Shown: positions 32,326-42,734 of the stretch, piece after piece
Numbering within the stretch: position 1 is the stretch's first letter
Layout of the letters: each line of letters begins with the position of its first letter
Origin: Candidatus Eiseniibacteriota bacterium
Lineage (GTDB): Bacteria > Orphanbacterota > Orphanbacteria > Orphanbacterales > Orphanbacteraceae
Assembly (NCBI GenBank): GCA_029262235.1
Contig: JAJCZU010000001.1
Span: 29,916 to 93,915 of the forward strand
Length of the DNA stretch: 64,000 nt
Direction: 5' to 3'
Notes under the pieces: generated by a model
Seen by the model: the letters and a program-made list of their open reading frames with translations, nothing else
Told to the model about the DNA's origin: nothing
Database searches by the model: none
Made by a program: the position numbers and the translations under genes

Positions 32326-33270
32326 ATGAGAAAGAGTTATCCCACGCTCGATTCGTTCGTGCACTGGCGCGAATCCGCGCGCCCGATCGTGTGGGCGGAC
32401 CAGTTCGGTCGCACCGCTCCGCTCGAAGTGGAGATCGGTTACGGCAACGGGGAGTATCTGATCCGGCGGGCATCCGAGAACCCGGGCACGAATTTCGTAG
32501 GCATCGAGCTCTACTGGGAATCGATCAAGCGGGCGATGCGGCGTATCAAACGGGAGGGAGTCGAGAACGTGCGACTGCTGCTCGGGGACGCGAACGAACT
32601 CCTGCCGCGCGTTTTCGAACCCGAAACGCTCGACCATGCCTACTCGCTCTTTCCGTGCCCCTGGCCGAAGGGGCGGCACGAGCACCATCGCCTTTTCACG
32701 ACCGCGTGCCTTCAGGTCATCAACAGCCGGCTGAAGCCGCATGGCAGGATGCGGATCGTGACGGACCACGCGGATTTTCGTGACTGGGTTCTTTCGCAGA
32801 CGAGTGACACCGGTTTCGATGTCGCGTGCACCGAAACGCCGTCCGGCTTCGAGACGAAGTACGAACGAAAGTGGATTCAGGGCGGGCAGCAGATCTTCTA
32901 CGAAATCAACATGACAAGGGTGACCGGGATCGACCGCCCGTTGACCGAGGACTATCCGATGAAAATGTATCGACTGGACGACTTCAACGCCGCCGCGTTC
33001 GCGCCGGAAGGGTGTACGGGGCCCGTTGTCGTTGAGTTCAAGGAGTGGATGTTCGATCCCGAGCGCGAGAAGGTGATGATACGCGCGTTCGTCGGTGAAA
33101 CGGACATGCAGCAGAACGTGTGGATCGAAATCGCGAAGAGGGAAGGCGTGTGGGTTCTGCGGCCGGCGATCGGCGGCGGCGCGATCCCGACCCGCGGGCT
33201 TCAGGTCGCGCTCGACCTCGTGCGGGATGCGGCGCTACGGAAGCGGCCGCGCGAGGTTCAGGCTGAATAG
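32326..33270 (+). CDS. trmB: tRNA (guanine-N7-)-methyltransferase TrmB with C-terminal extension
   Basis: A 314-residue protein that would methylate G46 of tRNA using S-adenosylmethionine. SAM motif LEVEIGYGNGEYLIRRA, then FVGIELYWESIKRA, and the tRNA-methyltransferase stretch ending KYERKWIQGG. In the signature usually written FPDPWPK the Asp is replaced by Cys111 (FPCPWPK), with GRHEHHRL after it. The family is usually about 210-230 residues; here roughly 100 extra residues (from about 205) form a separate domain that I do not recognise. The last 36 bp overlap the convergent egtD-like gene. Confidence 0.87.
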   Translation: MRKSYPTLDSFVHWRESARPIVWADQFGRTAPLEVEIGYGNGEYLIRRASENPGTNFVGIELYWESIKRAMRRIKREGVENVRLLLGDANELLPRVFEPETLDHAYSLFPCPWPKGRHEHHRLFTTACLQVINSRLKPHGRMRIVTDHADFRDWVLSQTSDTGFDVACTETPSGFETKYERKWIQGGQQIFYEINMTRVTGIDRPLTEDYPMKMYRLDDFNAAAFAPEGCTGPVVVEFKEWMFDPEREKVMIRAFVGETDMQQNVWIEIAKREGVWVLRPAIGGGAIPTRGLQVALDLVRDAALRKRPREVQAE

Positions 33271-34230
33271 CCCGTTCGAGTCGAACCATCGCTCCGCGAG
33301 TTCGAAACGCGCCTCGCGCAACAGCTCATCGATCTCGTCGATCGAGTACTTGTGCGAGTTCTCCGTATGAATCCGCTCACCGGCTCCGAATGAAAACGTG
33401 CTCCCGGTTTCGTCGATCGTGACTTCCTGGGCCTCTTCACTCACGAGAAACATCTGAATGCTGCCGGTTTCGGGATTGAACTTCGCTTCGTGCCGGAACT
33501 TCGCGCGGTTGAAGTGGCCGCCGAGCTCCGCATTGATCCTGTCGAGCAGATTGAGATTGAAGTCGGCGGTCACGCCGGCAGCATCGTTGTAAGCGCTCTC
33601 GAGAATCGCGACGTCTTTGCGCAGGTCGATCCCGACCAGCAGGCCGTCACGCTCGCTCAGAGACTCGCGCACTTTTCGCAGGAACGCGACCGCGCGGGGC
33701 CGCGTGAGATTGCCGATCGTCGAGCCGAGCCAGAGTACGAGCTTGGCGCCGGACTCGGCTGCCTCGATCCGGCGGAGGCCGTCTTCGAAATGGCCGGCAA
33801 TCGCGTGCACGGTAAGCCGCCGATGGCGCTCGAGCAGCTGCAGCGAGCTCTCGCGCAGAATCTCCTCGGAGATATCGATCGGTTCGTAGCGAAGCGATCC
33901 GTGCTCCGCGATCCACACCGATATCAGCAGGTCCGTCTTCACCGAACTGCCGCTGCCGAGTTCCACGAGAACCGTGTCCCGCGGGAACCGCCGCGCGATT
34001 TCGCCGGAGCGCCGGGCGAGAATCTCACGCTCCGAGCGCGTGAGGTAGTACTCGGGAAGTTCGCAGATCTGCTCGAACAGCAGCGAACCGGTTTCGTCGT
34101 AGAAGAAGCGGCAGTCGAGCCGTTTCGGGTCGCGCGCAAGACCGGCTTCGACAGCTTCGGCGAAGGATTCGCTCTGCAGTTGTTCGCCTTCGATCAGGCG
34201 GAATCGATTGTCGGCGGTAGCCGGATTCAC
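33235..34230 (-). CDS. egtD: EgtD-like L-histidine N-alpha-methyltransferase
   Basis: A 331-residue methyltransferase of the DUF2260/EgtD family, which trimethylates histidine to hercynine, the first step of ergothioneine synthesis. Seen: FYDETGSLLFEQICELPEYY, ELGSGSSVKTDLLI (SAM site), VLWLGSTIGNLTR, and the C-terminal SFGAGERIHTENSHKYS that contacts histidine. The usual partner EgtB (sulfoxide synthase) is not in the window, so the end product could be hercynine itself or ergothioneine completed elsewhere. A GTGAGG sequence lies about 9 nt before the ATG. The 3' end overlaps trmB antiparallel for 36 bp. Confidence 0.88.
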   Translation of the reverse strand: MNPATADNRFRLIEGEQLQSESFAEAVEAGLARDPKRLDCRFFYDETGSLLFEQICELPEYYLTRSEREILARRSGEIARRFPRDTVLVELGSGSSVKTDLLISVWIAEHGSLRYEPIDISEEILRESSLQLLERHRRLTVHAIAGHFEDGLRRIEAAESGAKLVLWLGSTIGNLTRPRAVAFLRKVRESLSERDGLLVGIDLRKDVAILESAYNDAAGVTADFNLNLLDRINAELGGHFNRAKFRHEAKFNPETGSIQMFLVSEEAQEVTIDETGSTFSFGAGERIHTENSHKYSIDEIDELLREARFELAERWFDSNGLFSLNLARPLP

Positions 34231-34296: not shown

Positions 34297-35064
34297 TTAT
34301 TTGTCATTGAGTGCCCAGTCGTAGTCAAGTTTCTTCAGCTTGAGATCGCCCCGATGCCCGGCAATGAAGGTCTGCGCAGCTTTCGGCGCATAGCGCAGCA
34401 GAAAATCGACGCGGTCGCGCCCGTCCCGCTCGAAATCCTCCCGGAACCAGAACAGGATTTCGGATACATGCAGGGTCGCGTTTTCGCCGCTCAGGAAGCC
34501 GCTTTCCATGCCGTACCGCAAGCCCTTCTCCTCGTTCGCGAAAAAGGCGCGCGTGACGCGGTCGAGCTGTTCGTCGAGCGCTTCGGCGCGATATGCCTCC
34601 GCGATCAGATCCGGGCACGAAAACGAGGCGCAGTTGATCGCAAAATGAATGCGCGGGTCGCCCAGCGGCCGCAGGAACTCGTGTTCAATCGCGTCGAGCG
34701 ACTGCTTCTCTCCACCCACGACCCAGCCTTCCCAGTTCCAGCGATCGCCGCGCGGGATGTCCTTGATGCTCTCGATGCCGGGGTAGTGGTTCAGGATGAG
34801 CTTGATCGTGAACGCGTTGTAGGCGTTGATCCAGAACGCTTTCTTTTCGTTCGCCGTCATCTTCGCCACGTCGGCTTTCGCGATGGTCGCGAGATAGGCG
34901 TCCAGTCGCGCTTCGTCCTTCCGGAGTCCGGCGTAATCGACCTCGCCGTTCGCGACATGCTTTGCGAGCAACTCGCCGAACGAGTCGTGAAGTTCCGCAG
35001 CGGCGGGCGACGAGAGAGTGAGCAGCGCGAAAGCCGCAGCGAGAATCCATGTCCTGTCGATCAT
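34297..35064 (-). CDS. Exported DUF547 protein
   Basis: A 255-residue protein: signal peptide about 1-22, then a DUF547 domain with the conserved KKAFWINAYNAFTIKLILNH and FAINCASFSCPDL stretches. The conserved Asn, Cys and His residues of this domain suggest an enzyme of papain-like type, but no activity has been established that I can name with confidence. The start at 35064 has AAGGA about 9 nt upstream. It is the last gene of the redox operon, 71 bp after the MerA-like gene. DUF547 proteins are frequently found beside TVP38 and MerA-like genes, which supports a shared process. Confidence 0.85.
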   Translation of the reverse strand: MIDRTWILAAAFALLTLSSPAAAELHDSFGELLAKHVANGEVDYAGLRKDEARLDAYLATIAKADVAKMTANEKKAFWINAYNAFTIKLILNHYPGIESIKDIPRGDRWNWEGWVVGGEKQSLDAIEHEFLRPLGDPRIHFAINCASFSCPDLIAEAYRAEALDEQLDRVTRAFFANEEKGLRYGMESGFLSGENATLHVSEILFWFREDFERDGRDRVDFLLRYAPKAAQTFIAGHRGDLKLKKLDYDWALNDK

Positions 35065-35135
35065 GTATGACGTTCCTTGTTCAAAGTCTCGCAATGCAAA
35101 GCCTGCAAACGAATGCCGTTCGAAGAGCAAGCGGT

Positions 35136-36653
35136 CTAGCGCGTGAATGAAAACCATTTCTCGAACAGCGACTTGACTAAGGGCGTGAGTCGCGTTCGAT
35201 TGTAGGCATCGCCGAGCCGCTTGATCGCTTCGGCCTGCGTGGGGTAGGGATGAATCGCCTTGGCGATCGTGCCGAGTCCCGCGCCGGCAGCCATCGCCAC
35301 CGTGATCTCGCTGATGAGATCGCCCGCGTGTTTCGCGACGATTGTAGCGCCCACGATTTTGTCGGTCCCCTTCCGCACGTGAATCTTCACGAGTCCGTTC
35401 TCTTCGTCGAGAATCGCGCGGTCCACATGCGAAAGCTCCTCCGTGTACGTGTCGATCTCGATGCCCTGCTCTTCCGCGTCAGCGGGATAAAGGCCGACGT
35501 GCGCAATCTCGGGATCGGTGTAAGTCGCCCACGGCACGGTGAGCGCGCTCGCCTTGCCGCGCCCGAGAAAGAGCGCGTTGCCGATCACGATGCGCGCGAG
35601 CGCGTCCGCCGTGTGGGTGAACTGATACTTCGAGCAGATGTCGCCGGCAGCGAAGATGTTCGGATTCGACGTGCGCAGACGATCATCGACCGTGACGCCG
35701 TGTTTCGTGTAAACGACGCCGGCCTCTTCGAGCCCGAGCCCTTCGACGTTCGGCTTGCGCCCGGCGGCAACCAGGACGCGGTCGGCCTCGACTGCGGCGT
35801 GACTTCCGTCCGCCCTCTCGATCCTGGCTTTGACGCGTGCGCCCTGCCTTTCAAGACCCGCGATCGTGACGCCGAGTTCCAAACGAATGCCGTCGGCCTC
35901 GAGTGCGGCCCGCACGATGTCCGCGGCGTCTTCGTCTTCTTTGATCAGAATGCGCGGCGCAAGTTCGAGAATCGTCACATTCGATCCGAATCGCCGGAAC
36001 GACTGCGCCATCTCGCACCCGATCGGGCCGGCGCCGATCACGATGAGATCCGCAGGAAGCTCGGTGAGTTCGAACAGCGTTTCGTTCGTGAGGTAGTCGA
36101 TGTCGTCGAGGCCCGGGATCGGCGGTGCCGATGCGCGTCCGCCGGTCGCGATGCACGCTTTGCTGAACGTGAGCACCTGGCCGTCGACTTCGACCTGGTT
36201 CCGGCCGACGAACTTTGCCTGCCCGAGATAAATGTCGACACCGAGGTCGCGAAAGCGGGGCGCGGAGTCGTGCGGCGCGATCTGGGCACGCAGCCGCCGC
36301 ATGCGTTCCATCACGGCGGGGAAATCGACGCGCGGTTCGCCGCCGGTGCGGATCCCGAGCGTGTGGGCGTCGCGCACTTCTGCATACGCCTTGGCCACGC
36401 GCAGCAACGCCTTCGATGGAACGCACCCGACGTTCAGGCAGTCGCCGCCCAGCATGTTCTTCTCGATGAGCGCGGCCTTCGCGCCGAGTCCTGCCGCGCC
36501 GGCGGCGGCCACGAGTCCTGCCGTGCCACCCCCGATCGCGATGATGTTGTACTTGCCGTCGGGCTTCGGATTCGTCCAGTCGGGCGGATGGACGTTCGCG
36601 ATCAGCTTTTGATTGTGTTCGTCATTCGGAAGCATTTCGATTTTGCCGCTCAT
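35136..36653 (-). CDS. MerA-like FAD/NAD(P)-dependent disulfide oxidoreductase (no mercury-binding tail)
   Basis: A 505-residue class I pyridine nucleotide-disulfide oxidoreductase. FAD site IIAIGGGTAGLVAAAGAAGL (about 37-56), redox pair Cys72 and Cys77 in GGDCLNVGCVPSK, NAD(P) site VIGAGPIGCEMAQ, second FAD motif FAAGDI, and dimer-interface base HPYPTQAEA near the C-terminus. The fold and length fit mercuric reductase and dihydrolipoamide dehydrogenase, but the C-terminal vicinal Cys pair that binds Hg(II) is missing (the chain ends WFSFTR), and there is no HMA domain. Reduction of another disulfide or thiol carrier is therefore likelier. It overlaps the TVP38 gene by 4 bp (ATGA), a pairing commonly seen in other genomes. 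Confidence 0.88.
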   Translation of the reverse strand: MSGKIEMLPNDEHNQKLIANVHPPDWTNPKPDGKYNIIAIGGGTAGLVAAAGAAGLGAKAALIEKNMLGGDCLNVGCVPSKALLRVAKAYAEVRDAHTLGIRTGGEPRVDFPAVMERMRRLRAQIAPHDSAPRFRDLGVDIYLGQAKFVGRNQVEVDGQVLTFSKACIATGGRASAPPIPGLDDIDYLTNETLFELTELPADLIVIGAGPIGCEMAQSFRRFGSNVTILELAPRILIKEDEDAADIVRAALEADGIRLELGVTIAGLERQGARVKARIERADGSHAAVEADRVLVAAGRKPNVEGLGLEEAGVVYTKHGVTVDDRLRTSNPNIFAAGDICSKYQFTHTADALARIVIGNALFLGRGKASALTVPWATYTDPEIAHVGLYPADAEEQGIEIDTYTEELSHVDRAILDEENGLVKIHVRKGTDKIVGATIVAKHAGDLISEITVAMAAGAGLGTIAKAIHPYPTQAEAIKRLGDAYNRTRLTPLVKSLFEKWFSFTR

Positions 36654-37387
36654 GACCCTGCCCGCGACGGCGCCGTGGCCGCCTGTTCGAGTTCATCCTT
36701 GCGAATCGCTTCGTTAAGCGCCCGCTTCGAAATGCGTGTCACGAAAATCGTAACGATCACCGTGGCGGCAAGCCCCGCGGCGAACAGGATCTGCTGCCCC
36801 GCACCTCCTTCGACGTTCCCCGCGAAGAGATCCGAGATGTTTTTGACCGCGCTGCCGAGGTAGACGTACATCAGCGTTCCCGGCAGCATGCCGATCCATG
36901 AGGCGAAGAAGTACTGTTTGAAACTCACCTTCGTAATGCCGTACGCGTAGTTCAGCAGATTGAACGGAAAGACGGGAGAGAGCCTCGTGAGCAGCACGAT
37001 CTTGAAGCCCTCGCGTCCCACCGCTTCATCGATTGCCTGGAACTTGCGATTCGACTGCACCTTCGCTTCGACCCATCGCCGCGCGAGTTTGCGTCCGATC
37101 AGAAACGCCGCGGCCGCTCCGAGAGTCGCGCCGATCGAAACGGCGATGCCGCCGGTAACCAGGCCGAACACGAATCCGGCGCCGAGCGTCAGAAGGGAGC
37201 CGGGGATCAGAAACACGCAGGCCACGATGTAGGCGCCCGCTAAGAAAACCGGCCCTGCCGGCCCCATGTCCCCGGCGGCGGTCAGAAGGCGCTGAATCCA
37301 TTCGTTCACCGGGAGGTAGCGGAACAGGGCGAAGAGACCCGCGGCCACTGCCAGCGCGACGGCGATCCGGGCGGCGTTCGATTTCAT
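36650..37387 (-). CDS. TVP38/TMEM64 (DedA-like) membrane protein
   Basis: A 245-residue inner-membrane protein of the TVP38/TMEM64 family: the hydrophobic core with FLIPGSLLTLGAGFVFG, the re-entrant loop region IGATLGAAAAFLIGRKLARR, and the conserved RLSPVFPFNLLNYAYGIT segment with GMLPGTLMYVYLG. Eukaryotic relatives are lipid scramblases; bacterial roles are uncertain. GGAGG sits 5 nt before the ATG at 37387; an ATG at 37390 is equally possible. It is translationally coupled to the MerA-like gene downstream and lies 47 bp after the redox fusion gene, inside the five-gene operon. Confidence 0.88.
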   Translation of the reverse strand: MKSNAARIAVALAVAAGLFALFRYLPVNEWIQRLLTAAGDMGPAGPVFLAGAYIVACVFLIPGSLLTLGAGFVFGLVTGGIAVSIGATLGAAAAFLIGRKLARRWVEAKVQSNRKFQAIDEAVGREGFKIVLLTRLSPVFPFNLLNYAYGITKVSFKQYFFASWIGMLPGTLMYVYLGSAVKNISDLFAGNVEGGAGQQILFAAGLAATVIVTIFVTRISKRALNEAIRKDELEQAATAPSRAGS

Positions 37388-37434
37388 CATGACCTCCGGC
37401 GGGGCAGGGGAGAAAGACAAAAGGCGTGGCGCGA

Positions 37435-39717
37435 CTACGATTCGCTCGTGAGTGCCGTCTTCGTTTCAGATGTTACAGCGGGATCGTCGCCGAACGAAAG
37501 AACGTCCATCGGGCATACCGTTACGCAGATCCCGCAGCCGATGCACGACGAGTCGTTGTTCGTCAGGGGTTCCTGTTTCAGCGCGTAGCTCATGACGTCG
37601 ATCCCGACCTGGCAGTTCCGTGTGCATTCCGTGCAGGCGATGCACTTGTCGTTCGACTTGATCTGAAATCGGCCGAACCACTTCGAATAAAGCCCCATGA
37701 GCTTCGCGAGCGGGCACCAGAAGCGGCACCACACTTTGCCGCCGAGAAACGGATAGAGCGTGACCGGCAGGATCCCGACGAGCCAGACGTCGACGTAGAT
37801 CCGGTAGATGTGCAGGCCCGCCTCGGAGGGCGCGCGCACGAATGCGATCGAGTCCTTGATCAGGATGCCGACCGTGACGACGATTGCGAAAATGAGAACG
37901 GCCATGTTCATCCATTCCCAGCGAATCGTCCCCTTCCCCTTGGGGGCGAGATGCCGCCAGCGGTCACCGAGCGTTTCCGCAAGGCCGCCGCACCCGCAGA
38001 TCCACGAGCAGAACCGCTTGCCATGGAAGAACGACAGAATCGGAATGAGAACGAAAGTGAGCACCACGCCCCAGATAATCCAGATCTGGTGCGGGTCGTA
38101 GAAGAACGTATAGAAGAAGAGCGGCCACGCGTAGACGACGCCGTAAGAGCGCCACGCCTGACCCGCGAACTGCGGATCGTTTGCGAGCGTATCGCCGACC
38201 CAGTGCATCTGCACGGCCCACTGAAACAGAAATTCGGGAATCAGAAAGAAGAAGATCCACTGAAAGCCGATCAGGGAGACGTAGCGCCAGATCTGGAAGC
38301 TGTCCCTGCGGTCGAAGCCCCAGCGTTTCATTGCCTGAATGCCGAACACGGTCATGAGCACGGTATAGAGAACCGTGTACCAGAACGACCACGGCCGGTT
38401 GCCGAACGAAAGCGCTTCGTATCCCCAGCCGCGGAACGGCCAGAACTCTTCGCCGTTGCCGACTTTCGCGCCGTACGCGGTGAAGCACGCGAGAAACGAA
38501 ATGCCGAGCCACGAGTACTTGTTGCCGCGCGACGCCGTTACGAAGAGCGCCGCGATCGCGACCAGCGCGAGTGCGCCGCTTGCGATCGGCGGCACGTTTG
38601 CGGCGAGTCCGGCCATGCGCGTGTCGGGCCCGTAGAGAGCGGCGAAGAAGAGGGCCGCGATCGTAAGGCCGAGGCTCGCGAGCCAGTTGCCGTGCCATTC
38701 GTTCTCGAGTCGAATGCCGACCGATCGCAGGAATCCGACCGGTAGTTCGGCGCCGACCAGTACGAACGCGTGGTCGAATTTTCGTTCTTCTTCGCGTTTC
38801 GTACCGCCGTCCTTTCGCTCGAGCGTGTACGCGTTCGTATCGAAGCGAAGCACGTTCGACTCGTAGATGACCTCGATCCGCCCGGCACTCACTGCGGCTT
38901 TCAACTGGCGCTCGTTGTCCTTGAACACGCGCCCGAACTCCGCGCCCCGATAGCTGAGGGTCACGCGGTTCGCCTCGGAGAGCACGAGCGCGGCTTCGAT
39001 CGCGCTGTTTCCGCCGCCCACGACGAGAATATCTTCGCCCTCGTAAATGCGCGGCGAGTAAAGGCGGTGATAGACGCGTTCCTGCTCTTCGCCCGGAACG
39101 CCGAGCTTGCGCGGGTTGCCGCGCTGGCCGATCGCGATGATGACGCGCCGCGCGCGATACTCGCTCTTCGATGTCTTCACGACGAACGGCGCTTTTTTAT
39201 CCGCGCGCGTAATCGACTCGACGCCTTCCTCGCGTCGCACGTCGAGATCGTTTTCCGTAATCATCTCGTTCCAGCGCGCGACGAGATCTTCTTTCCGCGC
39301 GCCGTCGAGCCAGAGCTTGCCCTTGGGCGGCTTGCTGTCGGGTTCGGCGTACACCCATTTCTTCTCGGGAAAGTTTTCGATCGTGTTCGCGATCTTGCTC
39401 TTCTCGAGCAGAAGGCACGAAAGCCCCGCTTCTTTCGCTTCGAGCGCCGCGTTCAGTCCGGCCGCGCCCGCGCCCGCGATCACGACGTCATAGACGTTCG
39501 AGTCGCTCCCTTTCGCGCCGGGAAGCGAGGCGATGTGATGAATGACTTCGTACCCCTGTTCCATCGCGAGCTTGATGACGGGGGCGCCGGCGAGATCGCC
39601 GATGATATACATGTCGTCGACGTTCGACTCGTTGTGCGCGCGCAGTTCCGGGCGCCGGTTCGGCATGTTCGCCGTATCGAGCAACCGGTCGAGAGGGCGT
39701 TTGATGAAGTTCAGCAT
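37435..39717 (-). CDS. NAD(P)-dependent flavoprotein fused to a membrane polyferredoxin
   Basis: A 760-residue two-part electron carrier. The N-terminal half (about 70-340) is a thioredoxin-reductase-like flavoprotein: FAD site GAGAAGLNAALEA (82-94) and NAD(P) site GGGNSAIEAAL (234-244). No redox-active CxxC is seen between them. A short IIGDLAGAPVIKLAMEQG copy of the usual C-terminal FAD motif sits unusually at residues 38-55. The C-terminal half has about six transmembrane helices of NapH/NosR type, Cys-rich loops (CSWICGC at 570-576; CRFWC at 664-668) and two [4Fe-4S] sites: CIACTECTRNC (692-702) and CIGCGICVTVCP (725-736). It should move electrons between NAD(P)H and the membrane or periplasm. 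It lies 20 bp after the metal-binding protein gene in the redox operon. Confidence 0.85.
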   Translation of the reverse strand: MLNFIKRPLDRLLDTANMPNRRPELRAHNESNVDDMYIIGDLAGAPVIKLAMEQGYEVIHHIASLPGAKGSDSNVYDVVIAGAGAAGLNAALEAKEAGLSCLLLEKSKIANTIENFPEKKWVYAEPDSKPPKGKLWLDGARKEDLVARWNEMITENDLDVRREEGVESITRADKKAPFVVKTSKSEYRARRVIIAIGQRGNPRKLGVPGEEQERVYHRLYSPRIYEGEDILVVGGGNSAIEAALVLSEANRVTLSYRGAEFGRVFKDNERQLKAAVSAGRIEVIYESNVLRFDTNAYTLERKDGGTKREEERKFDHAFVLVGAELPVGFLRSVGIRLENEWHGNWLASLGLTIAALFFAALYGPDTRMAGLAANVPPIASGALALVAIAALFVTASRGNKYSWLGISFLACFTAYGAKVGNGEEFWPFRGWGYEALSFGNRPWSFWYTVLYTVLMTVFGIQAMKRWGFDRRDSFQIWRYVSLIGFQWIFFFLIPEFLFQWAVQMHWVGDTLANDPQFAGQAWRSYGVVYAWPLFFYTFFYDPHQIWIIWGVVLTFVLIPILSFFHGKRFCSWICGCGGLAETLGDRWRHLAPKGKGTIRWEWMNMAVLIFAIVVTVGILIKDSIAFVRAPSEAGLHIYRIYVDVWLVGILPVTLYPFLGGKVWCRFWCPLAKLMGLYSKWFGRFQIKSNDKCIACTECTRNCQVGIDVMSYALKQEPLTNNDSSCIGCGICVTVCPMDVLSFGDDPAVTSETKTALTSES

Positions 39718-39736
39718 GAAGTCGTTCGGTCCTCTC

Positions 39737-40423
39737 TCAGGTCGGGTTCACTTCGGATCGTGCCGCGGGTTCGAGAGCGCGGCCGCAGTGAAGGCACGCG
39801 CTTGCGGAAGGATGGTTCGCTTTCCCGCATGCTGGACATCGAAGGGAAGCTCTCGTGGTCGGGACCTTGCGAAGGCCGGTCGCATGGAACTCCGTTTCAC
39901 GCGATTGTCTGGCCAGCACCATGCCGAGACCGACCACGTTCAGTGCAAAGCCGAGCGCGAACGAAGAACCGGCCGGAATCCCCTTGCGAACGGCCGCGAA
40001 TGCCGCGGCTCCTCCAAACATCACGCCGAGCAGCACATAGCAGCCGATCCAGAACGGGAGGCCGATCCGGCTCATGCGGTGCGGTGCCGAGTCGGCCTGA
40101 AAGAGAGCGCCGCGCGGTTCGATCCCGGCGGTCAGAGGGTCGAGGCCGCCGGTGCGTTCGAGTTCGTGAAAGTGTTCCAGGCACGCGGGAGAGCAGAGAG
40201 GAATCACGCGGCCTTTATAGAGACCGGAATGTTCGGCAGACGTGTGGGCGTTTCCGCAGAGCAGGCAGGGCGATGAGTCTTCAGCCAGGGCCGCCGGGCC
40301 GGCGTATGCCCCGGCGAGAATCAGCAGGCACGAAAACAGCAGCGTGATCCGGTTCGTCAATGTGTTCGTAACCTTTCGCGTCGCGCGGGCGATTCCAGAG
40401 TCGCGATGAGCGTTCTTCGCCAT
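39737..40423 (-). CDS. Membrane protein with TRASH/YHS-like metal site and C-terminal zinc ribbon
   Basis: A 228-residue protein of no family I can name. After an N-terminal hydrophobic segment (about 25-47) comes a possible metal site with Cys53, Cys56, Cys77 and Cys81 (PCLLCG ... LCSPACLEHF), resembling the TRASH/YHS fold used in copper and heavy-metal handling. Two transmembrane helices follow (about 121-141 and 152-171). The C-terminus is a zinc ribbon, CPAC-x10-CLHC (196-213). It is the first gene of the redox operon, 20 bp before the flavoprotein-polyferredoxin gene. No Shine-Dalgarno site is evident, so the exact start is uncertain. A metallochaperone or sensor role for the operon is inferred. 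Confidence 0.7.
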   Translation of the reverse strand: MAKNAHRDSGIARATRKVTNTLTNRITLLFSCLLILAGAYAGPAALAEDSSPCLLCGNAHTSAEHSGLYKGRVIPLCSPACLEHFHELERTGGLDPLTAGIEPRGALFQADSAPHRMSRIGLPFWIGCYVLLGVMFGGAAAFAAVRKGIPAGSSFALGFALNVVGLGMVLARQSRETEFHATGLRKVPTTRASLRCPACGKANHPSASACLHCGRALEPAARSEVNPT

Positions 40424-40488: not shown

Positions 40489-42003
40489 CTACGTAACGGC
40501 CGGATCCCGCTTCAGATGTTCCGGCACGATCCGATTCTCCAGCAGATCGAACAGAAGCTCGGTCAGGATGGCGAGCAGCGCGGCCGGAATCGCGCCTTCG
40601 AGAATCAGCGACGTGTCGTTCAGCGCGAGGCCCGTGACGATCGGCTCGCCGAGTCCGCCGGCGCCGATGAATGCCGCGAGGGTCGCCGTACCGATGTTGA
40701 TCACCGCCGCGGTCTTGATGCCGGCGAGAATGAGCGGTGCCGCGAGCGGGATCTCGACGTGCCGCAGACGTTGCCAGGCGGTGAGTCCGATGCCGCGCGC
40801 AACGCGCTTCAGATTCGGGTCGATCGCGAGCAGCGCGGCCGTCGTATTGCGCAGAATGGGGAGAAGCGCGTAGAGAAAGAGCGCGACGATCGCCGGCCGG
40901 AAGCCGATGCCGAGCACCGGGATCATGAACGCGAGCAGCGCGATCGAGGGAATCGTCTGCAGCAGGCCGGCGAGATAGAGAACGGGGCGGGCGAGGGCGC
41001 GTGTGCGATAGATCAGCACGCCGAGCGGAACGGCAACGAGAATGCCGAGTGCGAGCGCGATGAGCGTGAGCTGCAAGTGCCGTGCTCCGCGCCGCACCAC
41101 CGCGTCGAGGCGGCTCTCACGCACGGGCGGGCGGGTTCGATCTGACGACAGGGCCTCGTTCCCGCCGGGCCTCTCTTCCAGGAATTCGTGCGCCACTTCC
41201 GCGAACGTGCGGTCGTCGAGAAGCACCTTGCCGTTCATGGCGCGCATGGCCGCTTCGTCGATCGTGCCCGCAAGGCGCTCCAGCACGGGCCGGACGCGCG
41301 CTTCGACTCCGGGCGCCACGAGAGGGGCGGCCTGATACTCGGGAAAATAGCCGCGATCGTCCGCGAGCAGCACGAGGTCGTACTTCTGTATGTCGCCGTC
41401 CGTCGAATAGCAGTCGGTGGCGTCAAGGTTCTTCGTCCGCATCGCCTCGTAGGCGAGACCGTGTTCGATTCCCGCAGGCTTCTGCGGAAGTCCGTAGCGT
41501 GCGGCAAGCCCGGGCCATCCGTCCTGCCGGTTCAGAAACTCGTGACTGAAGGCGATGGCGAGCCCGGGGTGCGCGGCGAGATCGCCGATCGATGTGAGCG
41601 ACAATCGTTCGGCCGTCTCCCGGCGTACCGCGATCGCATATGTGTTGTCGAACCCGAGCGAGGGAAGGAACGCGAGCCCCGTTTCTTCGCGCACGACACT
41701 CTGGAGGTCGGAAAACGAGGAGCGCGTTTCGCGCTTCAGAATCGCCTGTTCGATCGTGCCCGAGTACTCGGGGTAGAGATCGATTTCACCGTTTCGAAGT
41801 GCTTCGTAACAGACGAGGGTTCCGCCGAGGCCGAAGCGGCGCTCGACACGGATCCCTTCGCGCTCGAGCGCCCGGGCGAGCAGTTCGCCGAGAATGTATC
41901 CTTCCGTGAAGTTCTTCGAGCCTACGCGAATCGTTTCTTCGGCATGAGCCGAATGCGGGGTGAAAACGGCAAGGGTCGCTATGACGGCGAGGGTGCGTTT
42001 CAT
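40489..42003 (-). CDS. Quaternary-amine-type ABC importer: binding protein fused to permease (SBP then TMD)
   Basis: A 504-residue fusion. Signal peptide about 1-21; a glycine betaine/choline-type binding domain (about 22-290) with IRVGSKNFTEGYILGELLA and EIDLYPEYSGTIEQA; then a permease domain (about 310-490) with LLQTIPSIALLAFMIPVLGI and the ATPase-contacting loop GIGLTAWQRLRHVEIPLAAP. Such fusions are known in the OpuC/EgtU family, often with the permease first; here the binding domain is N-terminal. Its start overlaps the ATPase stop (ATGA). Ligand options include glycine betaine, choline, carnitine or ergothioneine. Confidence 0.88.
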   Translation of the reverse strand: MKRTLAVIATLAVFTPHSAHAEETIRVGSKNFTEGYILGELLARALEREGIRVERRFGLGGTLVCYEALRNGEIDLYPEYSGTIEQAILKRETRSSFSDLQSVVREETGLAFLPSLGFDNTYAIAVRRETAERLSLTSIGDLAAHPGLAIAFSHEFLNRQDGWPGLAARYGLPQKPAGIEHGLAYEAMRTKNLDATDCYSTDGDIQKYDLVLLADDRGYFPEYQAAPLVAPGVEARVRPVLERLAGTIDEAAMRAMNGKVLLDDRTFAEVAHEFLEERPGGNEALSSDRTRPPVRESRLDAVVRRGARHLQLTLIALALGILVAVPLGVLIYRTRALARPVLYLAGLLQTIPSIALLAFMIPVLGIGFRPAIVALFLYALLPILRNTTAALLAIDPNLKRVARGIGLTAWQRLRHVEIPLAAPLILAGIKTAAVINIGTATLAAFIGAGGLGEPIVTGLALNDTSLILEGAIPAALLAILTELLFDLLENRIVPEHLKRDPAVT

Positions 42004-42734
42004 CGCGACTCCTCGTACGCGCGAAAAAAGCCGGCTACGAAATCGTTTGCCGGCTGCGCCAGGATCGTCTGCGTTTCCGCCTGCTGCTCGACGCGCCCCT
42101 CGTTCACGACGACGATCTCGTCGGCCAGCTTCTGCGCCTCGTGCAGGTCGTGCGTCACGAGCACGATCGTCCGCCTGCCCGCTTCGCGAATGCGTTCGAA
42201 CTCGCGATGCACCTCGCCGCGCGTCAGCGGGTCGAGCGCGCCGAACGGCTCGTCGAGCAGGAACAGCGGCGGGTCGAGCATCATCGCGCGGCAAAGGCCC
42301 ACGCGCTGCATTTCGCCGCCCGAAAGTTCGTGCGGGTGACGCGTCTCGTAATGTTCCGGGAGTTCGACGAGCGCCATGAGTTCGCGAACGCGCGCGCTGC
42401 GGCGCGCCCCGTCCCAGCCGTTCATCTCGGCGAGAATCGCGATGTTGCGCGCGACATTCCAATGCGGGAACAGGCCGATTCCCTGCACCGCGTAACCGAT
42501 TTTTCTGCGAAGCTGGGGAAGCTCGCCGTAATCGACCGGCGCGTCGAAGACCCGCACGCTGCCGGCGTCCGGACGGACCATGCCGTTGATCATCTGGAGA
42601 AGGGTGGACTTGCCGCTGCCGCTCGGGCCGATGATCGCCGTCGTTCGATTGGCCGGGATCGAAAGTGAAACGGATTCGGCCGCAATCTCCCGCCCGTAGC
42701 GTTTCGAAACCGAATCGAACTGAACGACGCTCAT
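42000..42734 (-). CDS. ABC importer ATPase (OpuCA/ProV-like)
   Basis: A 244-residue ATPase: Walker A GPSGSGKST near residue 36, the quaternary-amine-importer Q-loop KIGYAVQGIGLFPHWNVARN, signature LSGGEMQRVGLCRA, Walker B LFLLDEPFGALDPLTR, switch THDLHEA. There are no C-terminal CBS domains, so osmotic gating of the OpuA/ProV kind is unlikely. It is coupled to the fused binding-protein/permease gene downstream (4-bp overlap) and sits 21 bp after ddl. Confidence 0.9.
   Translation of the reverse strand: MSVVQFDSVSKRYGREIAAESVSLSIPANRTTAIIGPSGSGKSTLLQMINGMVRPDAGSVRVFDAPVDYGELPQLRRKIGYAVQGIGLFPHWNVARNIAILAEMNGWDGARRSARVRELMALVELPEHYETRHPHELSGGEMQRVGLCRAMMLDPPLFLLDEPFGALDPLTRGEVHREFERIREAGRRTIVLVTHDLHEAQKLADEIVVVNEGRVEQQAETQTILAQPANDFVAGFFRAYEESR

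Follow-up and report, generated by a model that had tools for sequence, protein, structure and literature searches.

The window, a stretch of 64,000 nucleotides from a Candidatus Eiseniibacteriota bacterium, harbours on its minus strand, from 40423 to 34297, five neighbouring genes in the order TRASH-FUS-TVP38-MerA-like-DUF547, where FUS denotes a flavoprotein/NapH fusion and TRASH a TRASH/zinc-ribbon membrane protein (Table 1). A first-pass annotation had described these as a redox operon. All five open reading frames are present on the minus strand where it had placed them, the gaps it gave (20, 47, -4 and 71 bp) match the later starts of TVP38 (ATG 37387; the likely start is an ATG at about 37387-37390) and DUF547 (ATG 35064, where the signal peptide begins), and the domains it named were matched (DUF547, Pyr_redox_2/Pyr_redox_dim and VTT_dom, with Pyr_redox_3, Fer4_5 and Fer4_21 making up the fusion). 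The five neighbouring genes look like an operon; promoter and terminator scans of the region gave matches no more numerous than in shuffles. The egtD gene lies 66 bp downstream of DUF547 on the same strand and is a possible sixth member. Directly upstream of the operon, at 40489-42462 (minus strand), is a choline/glycine-betaine type ABC transporter gene with fused binding protein and permease, and a transporter gene of this type is near the operon in loci L002 and L071 too.

Table 1. Genes of the block and the adjoining egtD gene, with positions in the window
Feature	Position	Strand	Evidence
TRASH/zinc-ribbon membrane protein, 228 aa	39737..40423	-	ORF call, conservation, profile matches
FUS, flavoprotein/NapH fusion	37435..39717	-	domain matches, alignments, structure model
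TVP38/VTT (DedA superfamily) membrane protein	36650..37420	-	VTT_dom 7.1e-35
MerA-like FAD-dependent disulfide oxidoreductase, PRK06370/NF004991 subfamily	35136..36653	-	NF004991 match
Exported DUF547 protein	34297..35064	-	DUF547 3e-26; ORF opens at 35157
egtD, L-histidine N-alpha-methyltransferase (ergothioneine pathway)	33235..34230	-	TIGR03438 352 bits (cut-off 291)

Architecture of the encoded proteins

FUS joins a YpdA/TrxR-like FAD/NAD(P)H reductase (residues ~24-342) to a NapH-like membrane part of several helices, followed at the C-terminus by a 2x[4Fe-4S] ferredoxin (C692-C735). The NapH-like membrane ferredoxin of the first-pass annotation was borne out by matches above cut-off to Fer4_5/NapH (PF12801, 23.1 bits, cut-off 22) and to the dicluster ferredoxin family (PF14697, 36.9 bits, cut-off 35), with the NapH/MauN subfamily TIGR02163 scoring 62.9 against a cut-off of 213. 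Rather than the two CX3CP motifs of NapH/MauN, FUS carries CX3CGC (570-576) followed by CX3CP (664-669). C570, C574, C576, C664 and C668, along with the eight cluster cysteines, do not vary among the 34 FUS proteins compared, which come from many phyla. The predicted position of both CX3C motifs is close to the cytosolic face, and FUS shows no conserved ligand for an extracytosolic cofactor; a scan of eight window proteins for an FMN-binding domain gave no FMN_bind match.

Residues 76-340 of FUS match YpdA and TrxR/FNR structures, and ESNVDDMYIIGDLAG, near the N-terminus, is the segment that normally ends such reductases. When residues 24-68 were moved behind residue 342, alignments to YpdA, TrxR and FNR reached the equivalent region and scores rose from 96.7 to 105.5 bits for YpdA and from 44.7 to 59.2 for the 3ab1 FNR, while in a control with the same tail reversed the tail stayed unaligned and the scores were 100.6 and 45.5, respectively. 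Since the moved tail extended the alignments and scored higher than the reversed one, these comparisons indicate that the reductase domain is a circularly permuted one of the YpdA/TrxR type. A structure model of modest confidence (pLDDT 76) has the YpdA fold (Z 23). The domain possesses neither the YpdA cysteine (the GGGPCG site reads GAGAAG) nor the CxxC of TrxR, and it scored 151 against the cut-off of 340 for the YpdA family TIGR04018. The window genome encodes a second reductase resembling the FUS N-terminus (42% identity, 785-aa open frame) and apparently devoid of a NapH part, at G000 C2:102658-103617 (L039, L073).

The TRASH protein has a hydrophobic export leader (~21-39), an outer domain bearing C53xxC56 and C77xxxC81, a membrane hairpin of two hydrophobic segments (126-144 and 153-171) and a C-terminal part in which GLRKVPTT precedes a zinc ribbon (C196xxC199...H204P...C210xxC213) resembling the RanBP2/NZF type. 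The segment count would place the ribbon outside, and the charge pattern is ambiguous. No curated family matched above cut-off, the matches being sub-threshold zinc-ribbon ones in Pfam and none in NCBIfam. The outer domain matched the zf-MYM/TRASH structure 2das at a profile E of 0.008; Foldseek with the protein model (pTM 0.44) listed this structure weakly and returned nothing at E < 0.001. The earlier description of a CxxC/CxxxC metal site plus a zinc ribbon stood for the ribbon, whose C196, C199, C210, C213 and H204 are invariant in 21/21 aligned rows, and for C53xxC56, kept in nearly all rows with an outer domain; it did not hold generally for C77xxxC81, which is complete in 7/21 members, the four-Cys site being confined to one clade plus L019. 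Because the outer domain is gone in L006 and L015 and the CxxxC is present in only these seven members, the outer site alone is not essential to all systems.

The MerA-like protein matched NF004991 at 773 bits (cut-off 620) and fell below the cut-off for MerA (TIGR02053, 392 versus 454 bits). It has a CLNVGC active site and was rightly said to lack mercury-binding C-terminal cysteines: its cysteines are at 72, 77, 167, 213 and 340 of 505 residues, with no HMA domain and no C-terminal pair. The window DUF547 protein scored 92 bits with PF04784 (cut-off 27) and carries a conserved CASxSCP, its CX4C pair being invariant in the FUS-linked set; a search of the PDB gave no match.

Gene neighbourhoods within and beyond the family

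The phylum of the window genome (4.47 Mb) is sampled by seven genomes, all of one family. Canonical FUS occurs in three of them and the TRASH gene in the same three; in all three, from two genera, the complete block of five genes is in the same order with egtD after it. The block of L002/G001 comes from the genus of the window (77-94% identity) and that of G004 from another genus (49-75% identity), so it has persisted across substantial divergence. The order kept in L002/G001 and G004 confirmed that the five same-order genes are more than chance, in support of the claimed redox operon. The egtB gene is on another contig (G000 C3:284155-285426), and the window genome should be able to make ergothioneine. 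An ergothioneine-operon reading was rejected, given the position of egtB and the restriction of egtD synteny to this family.

A search with FUS only of ~85,000 species genomes yielded 36 loci with record labels including Acidobacteria, Planctomycetota, Verrucomicrobia, Lentisphaeria, Elusimicrobia, Calditrichota, KSB1, Spirochaetia and Cloacimonadota. A TRASH-type gene is directly upstream of FUS on the same strand in 21 of these. Whole-genome searches of the FUS genomes without an adjoining TRASH gene found no TRASH elsewhere, except in G027, whose second FUS, a canonical one, is immediately preceded by TRASH. Across phyla the conserved core is two genes, FUS and the TRASH protein immediately upstream, often with DUF547, and the five genes form one unit within this bacterial family only (3/3 genomes with FUS). 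Among the loci examined, TVP38 and MerA-like genes adjoin FUS in the window family and not outside it; the five-gene operon is a local elaboration of the FUS-TRASH core, to which this family added the TVP38/MerA-like pair.

Samples of single phyla gave the same coupling. Among 396 Acidobacteriota genomes, full-length canonical FUS was found in six and a strong TRASH match in the identical six (one of them the centre genome; a contig end truncates a seventh FUS), five pairs being adjacent and one split over contigs; by simple counting that ignores relatedness, the chance of such a six-on-six match is near 2e-13. TRASH was directly upstream of all nine canonical FUS genes in 392 Planctomycetota genomes (two already known before the genome sample) and of all three in 387 Verrucomicrobiota genomes (all already known). 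An orphan second TRASH copy occurs in one genome, G009. Weak TRASH matches in G305 and G241, which lack FUS, were rejected as generic two-segment zinc-ribbon proteins.

On a quick FUS tree with midpoint root, the canonical members fall into a single TRASH-bearing clade of 47; loss or replacement of TRASH is mostly confined to one acidobacterial subclade. On this quick tree the window FUS is grouped with sequences from Elusimicrobia and Verrucomicrobia/Lentisphaeria and a single acidobacterial one (SH-aLRT 97), a placement that suggests lateral transfer. The same large glucosidase-like gene is directly downstream of FUS in an Elusimicrobia and an Acidobacteriota genome (L003:4637-6515 and L122:2771-5479), which points to either lateral transfer or misbinned contigs.

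TRASH is absent from L008 and L031, where an exported YHS protein is encoded just upstream of FUS instead (L008:7378-7854, of NF041384 type, and L031:2094-2672); we take the YHS fold to be related to TRASH. In the acidobacterial subclade that lost TRASH (L022-L029), FUS has near it, in most loci directly downstream, the genes for a metallo-beta-lactamase-fold protein and for a short molybdoenzyme resembling sulfite oxidase, in which no signal peptide was seen. A gene for a YceI-like exported lipid-binding protein is within ~10 bp downstream of FUS in L008, L016 and L020. In L119 (2671-4787), genes for ArsS, a peroxidase-like partner and an arsenosugar glycosyltransferase adjoin a distant FUS relative, with ArsS convergent; an arsenosugar/selenium cluster reading was rejected, as these genes converge on FUS and the window genome has no ArsS (TIGR04167 above cut-off).

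DUF547 is a recurrent exported partner of FUS-type genes. An exported DUF547 gene is within 2 kb of a FUS-type gene in 11 loci on the tree from several phyla, both with TRASH (window, L002, L004, L005, L030 and L036) and without it (L117, L135, L148, L157 and L162); L149 also has DUF547 near FUS, with a split frame, and was left out of the tree. The association requires at least eight changes on the FUS tree, and with just one DUF547 gene in the window genome, such adjacency should seldom arise by chance. An apparent FUS-DUF547 fusion in L157 was rejected as an antisense-type shadow frame, the genes adjoining unfused.

Candidate routes and acceptors for the electrons

The FUS-TRASH pair probably moves electrons from NAD(P)H across or into the membrane. 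Observed here are the architecture, the conservation and the two-gene coupling; the donor, direction and acceptor are proposed as follows. NAD(P)H, the donor proposed by the first-pass annotation and favoured by the protein families, would reduce the FAD of the permuted YpdA/TrxR-like domain, which, because it is without redox cysteines, may work as a relay in the manner of TrxR-type ferredoxin-NADP reductases. Judging from related families, electrons would then pass to the two C-terminal [4Fe-4S] clusters and, as in NapH/NosR, to the CX3CGC/CX3CP membrane part, from which the TRASH/zinc-ribbon (or YHS-type) protein most likely hands them to an acceptor outside, a step that would serve thiol or metal reduction. 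The TVP38/MerA-like pair, and perhaps egtD, would have joined this core operon in the window family. NapH-like proteins are modular electron-transfer units (PMC8238504), and our leading, still tentative, reading, which we rate at somewhat under an even chance, is that the pair constitutes an NAD(P)H-driven, two-component membrane electron-transfer (export) module of the NapH type with thiol, metal or quinone as candidate acceptors. Its specific form, in which export dispenses with flavinylated proteins, DsbD and heme and runs from the permuted fusion through the new TRASH/zinc-ribbon protein to exported DUF547-type partners, is conceivable but more doubtful. Export leaves the route across the membrane unexplained because no outer cofactor ligand is conserved and the CX3C motifs are predicted near the cytosolic face. 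The loss of the outer TRASH domain in L006 and L015, the ambiguous side of the zinc ribbon, the modest confidence of the structure models and the rarity of metal genes in FUS neighbourhoods also count against this reading.

Chief among the alternatives is that FUS is an NAD(P)H:quinone oxidoreductase, its FAD and ferredoxin clusters reducing membrane quinone at a NapH-type quinone site and the TRASH protein being an assembly or sensor subunit. It holds this rank because NapH itself is a quinol dehydrogenase (of menaquinol; PMC5928378), which makes quinone a plausible FUS partner, and because FUS has no conserved outer cofactor site. The predicted position of both CX3C motifs near the cytosolic side, the loss of the outer TRASH domain in some members, a UbiE/MenG gene just upstream of TRASH in L014 and the probably cytosolic molybdoenzymes (no signal peptide seen) adjoining the deep FUS relatives in L022 and L034 point the same way. 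We nevertheless consider it rather unlikely, as it leaves unexplained the tight pairing with a TRASH protein that has an invariant Cys4 site, the replacement by YHS and the recurrence of exported DUF547.

FUS could instead be a dedicated metal (cupric) reductase for copper handling whose TRASH/YHS partner binds the metal, akin to CcoG, which reduces Cu(II) and is a membrane protein containing two [4Fe-4S] clusters (PMC7558416). TRASH/YHS domains bind metals in known cases, and downstream of FUS in L032 is the gene for a P-type ATPase whose N-terminus bears a YHS-like metal motif. This reading is improbable: metal-homeostasis families are not enriched among 89 scanned neighbours, one copper gene occurs in 26 loci and the four-Cys TRASH site is limited as described above. 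A copper-only reading was rejected, the L032 ATPase being the sole copper-type one among the 89. Less probable still is extracytosolic thiol/methionine-sulfoxide repair replacing DsbD, with electrons going to the DUF547 CX4C pair or an exported MsrA, for although this pair is invariant, DUF547 is the commonest partner, DUF547 in L030 is followed by an MsrA whose N-terminus is hydrophobic and L006 has MsrA/MsrB genes near FUS, the operon has no thioredoxin-fold carrier that we could find, MsrA is near FUS in only 2/26 loci and DUF547 is an orphan family.

Relation to known electron-transfer systems

To our knowledge, electrons from cytosolic reductant can take only a few routes to the outside: cytochromes, thiol relays of the DsbD type, and flavinylated proteins with NapH-, MsrQ- or PepSY-like membrane partners. 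We found no description of the FUS-TRASH pair in a literature search that reached few subscription papers, and no curated family matched the permuted FUS with its TRASH partner above cut-off as a whole. FUS shares with NapH/NosR/RdhC-type membrane ferredoxins the helices with two CX3C(P)-type motifs, the C-terminal 2x[4Fe-4S] domain and a probable role in modular electron transfer; it differs in having its own NAD(P)H/FAD reductase in front, in a first motif that is CX3CGC and not CX3CP, and in that no FMN-binding domain was found in it or beside it in the window operon. The best solved relatives of the reductase are YpdA (Bdr) and TrxR-type ferredoxin-NADP reductases, with which it has the FAD and NAD(P) Rossmann domains in common, whereas the FUS domain is circularly permuted, lacks the GGGPCG cysteine and the TrxR CxxC and is fused to a membrane part. 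The cupric reductase CcoG/FixG is likewise a membrane protein, has two [4Fe-4S] clusters and is connected with metal reduction, but its electron donor is not known and it ends in an Ig-like domain, while FUS carries its own NAD(P)H module. For TVP38, MerA-like and DUF547, described by the first-pass annotation as frequent neighbours, the pairing of TVP38 with the MerA-like gene is known, including as fusions: COG0398 TVP38/DedA proteins are most often fused to PF07992/PF02852 (pyridine nucleotide-disulfide oxidoreductase) domains (PMC10127716). Here, by contrast, the pair is joined to FUS, TRASH and DUF547, and in one bacterial family only.

FUS and TRASH are built from known superfamily parts and together pair a NapH-like electron-transfer system with a partner from a new family. 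If our reading is true, the known export routes would gain a further one, in which NAD(P)H oxidation and the membrane part are fused in one self-contained protein whose TRASH-type partner looks obligate. The FUS system also makes two orphan families, DUF547 and the TRASH/zinc-ribbon protein, accessible to genetics in several phyla that have been little studied.
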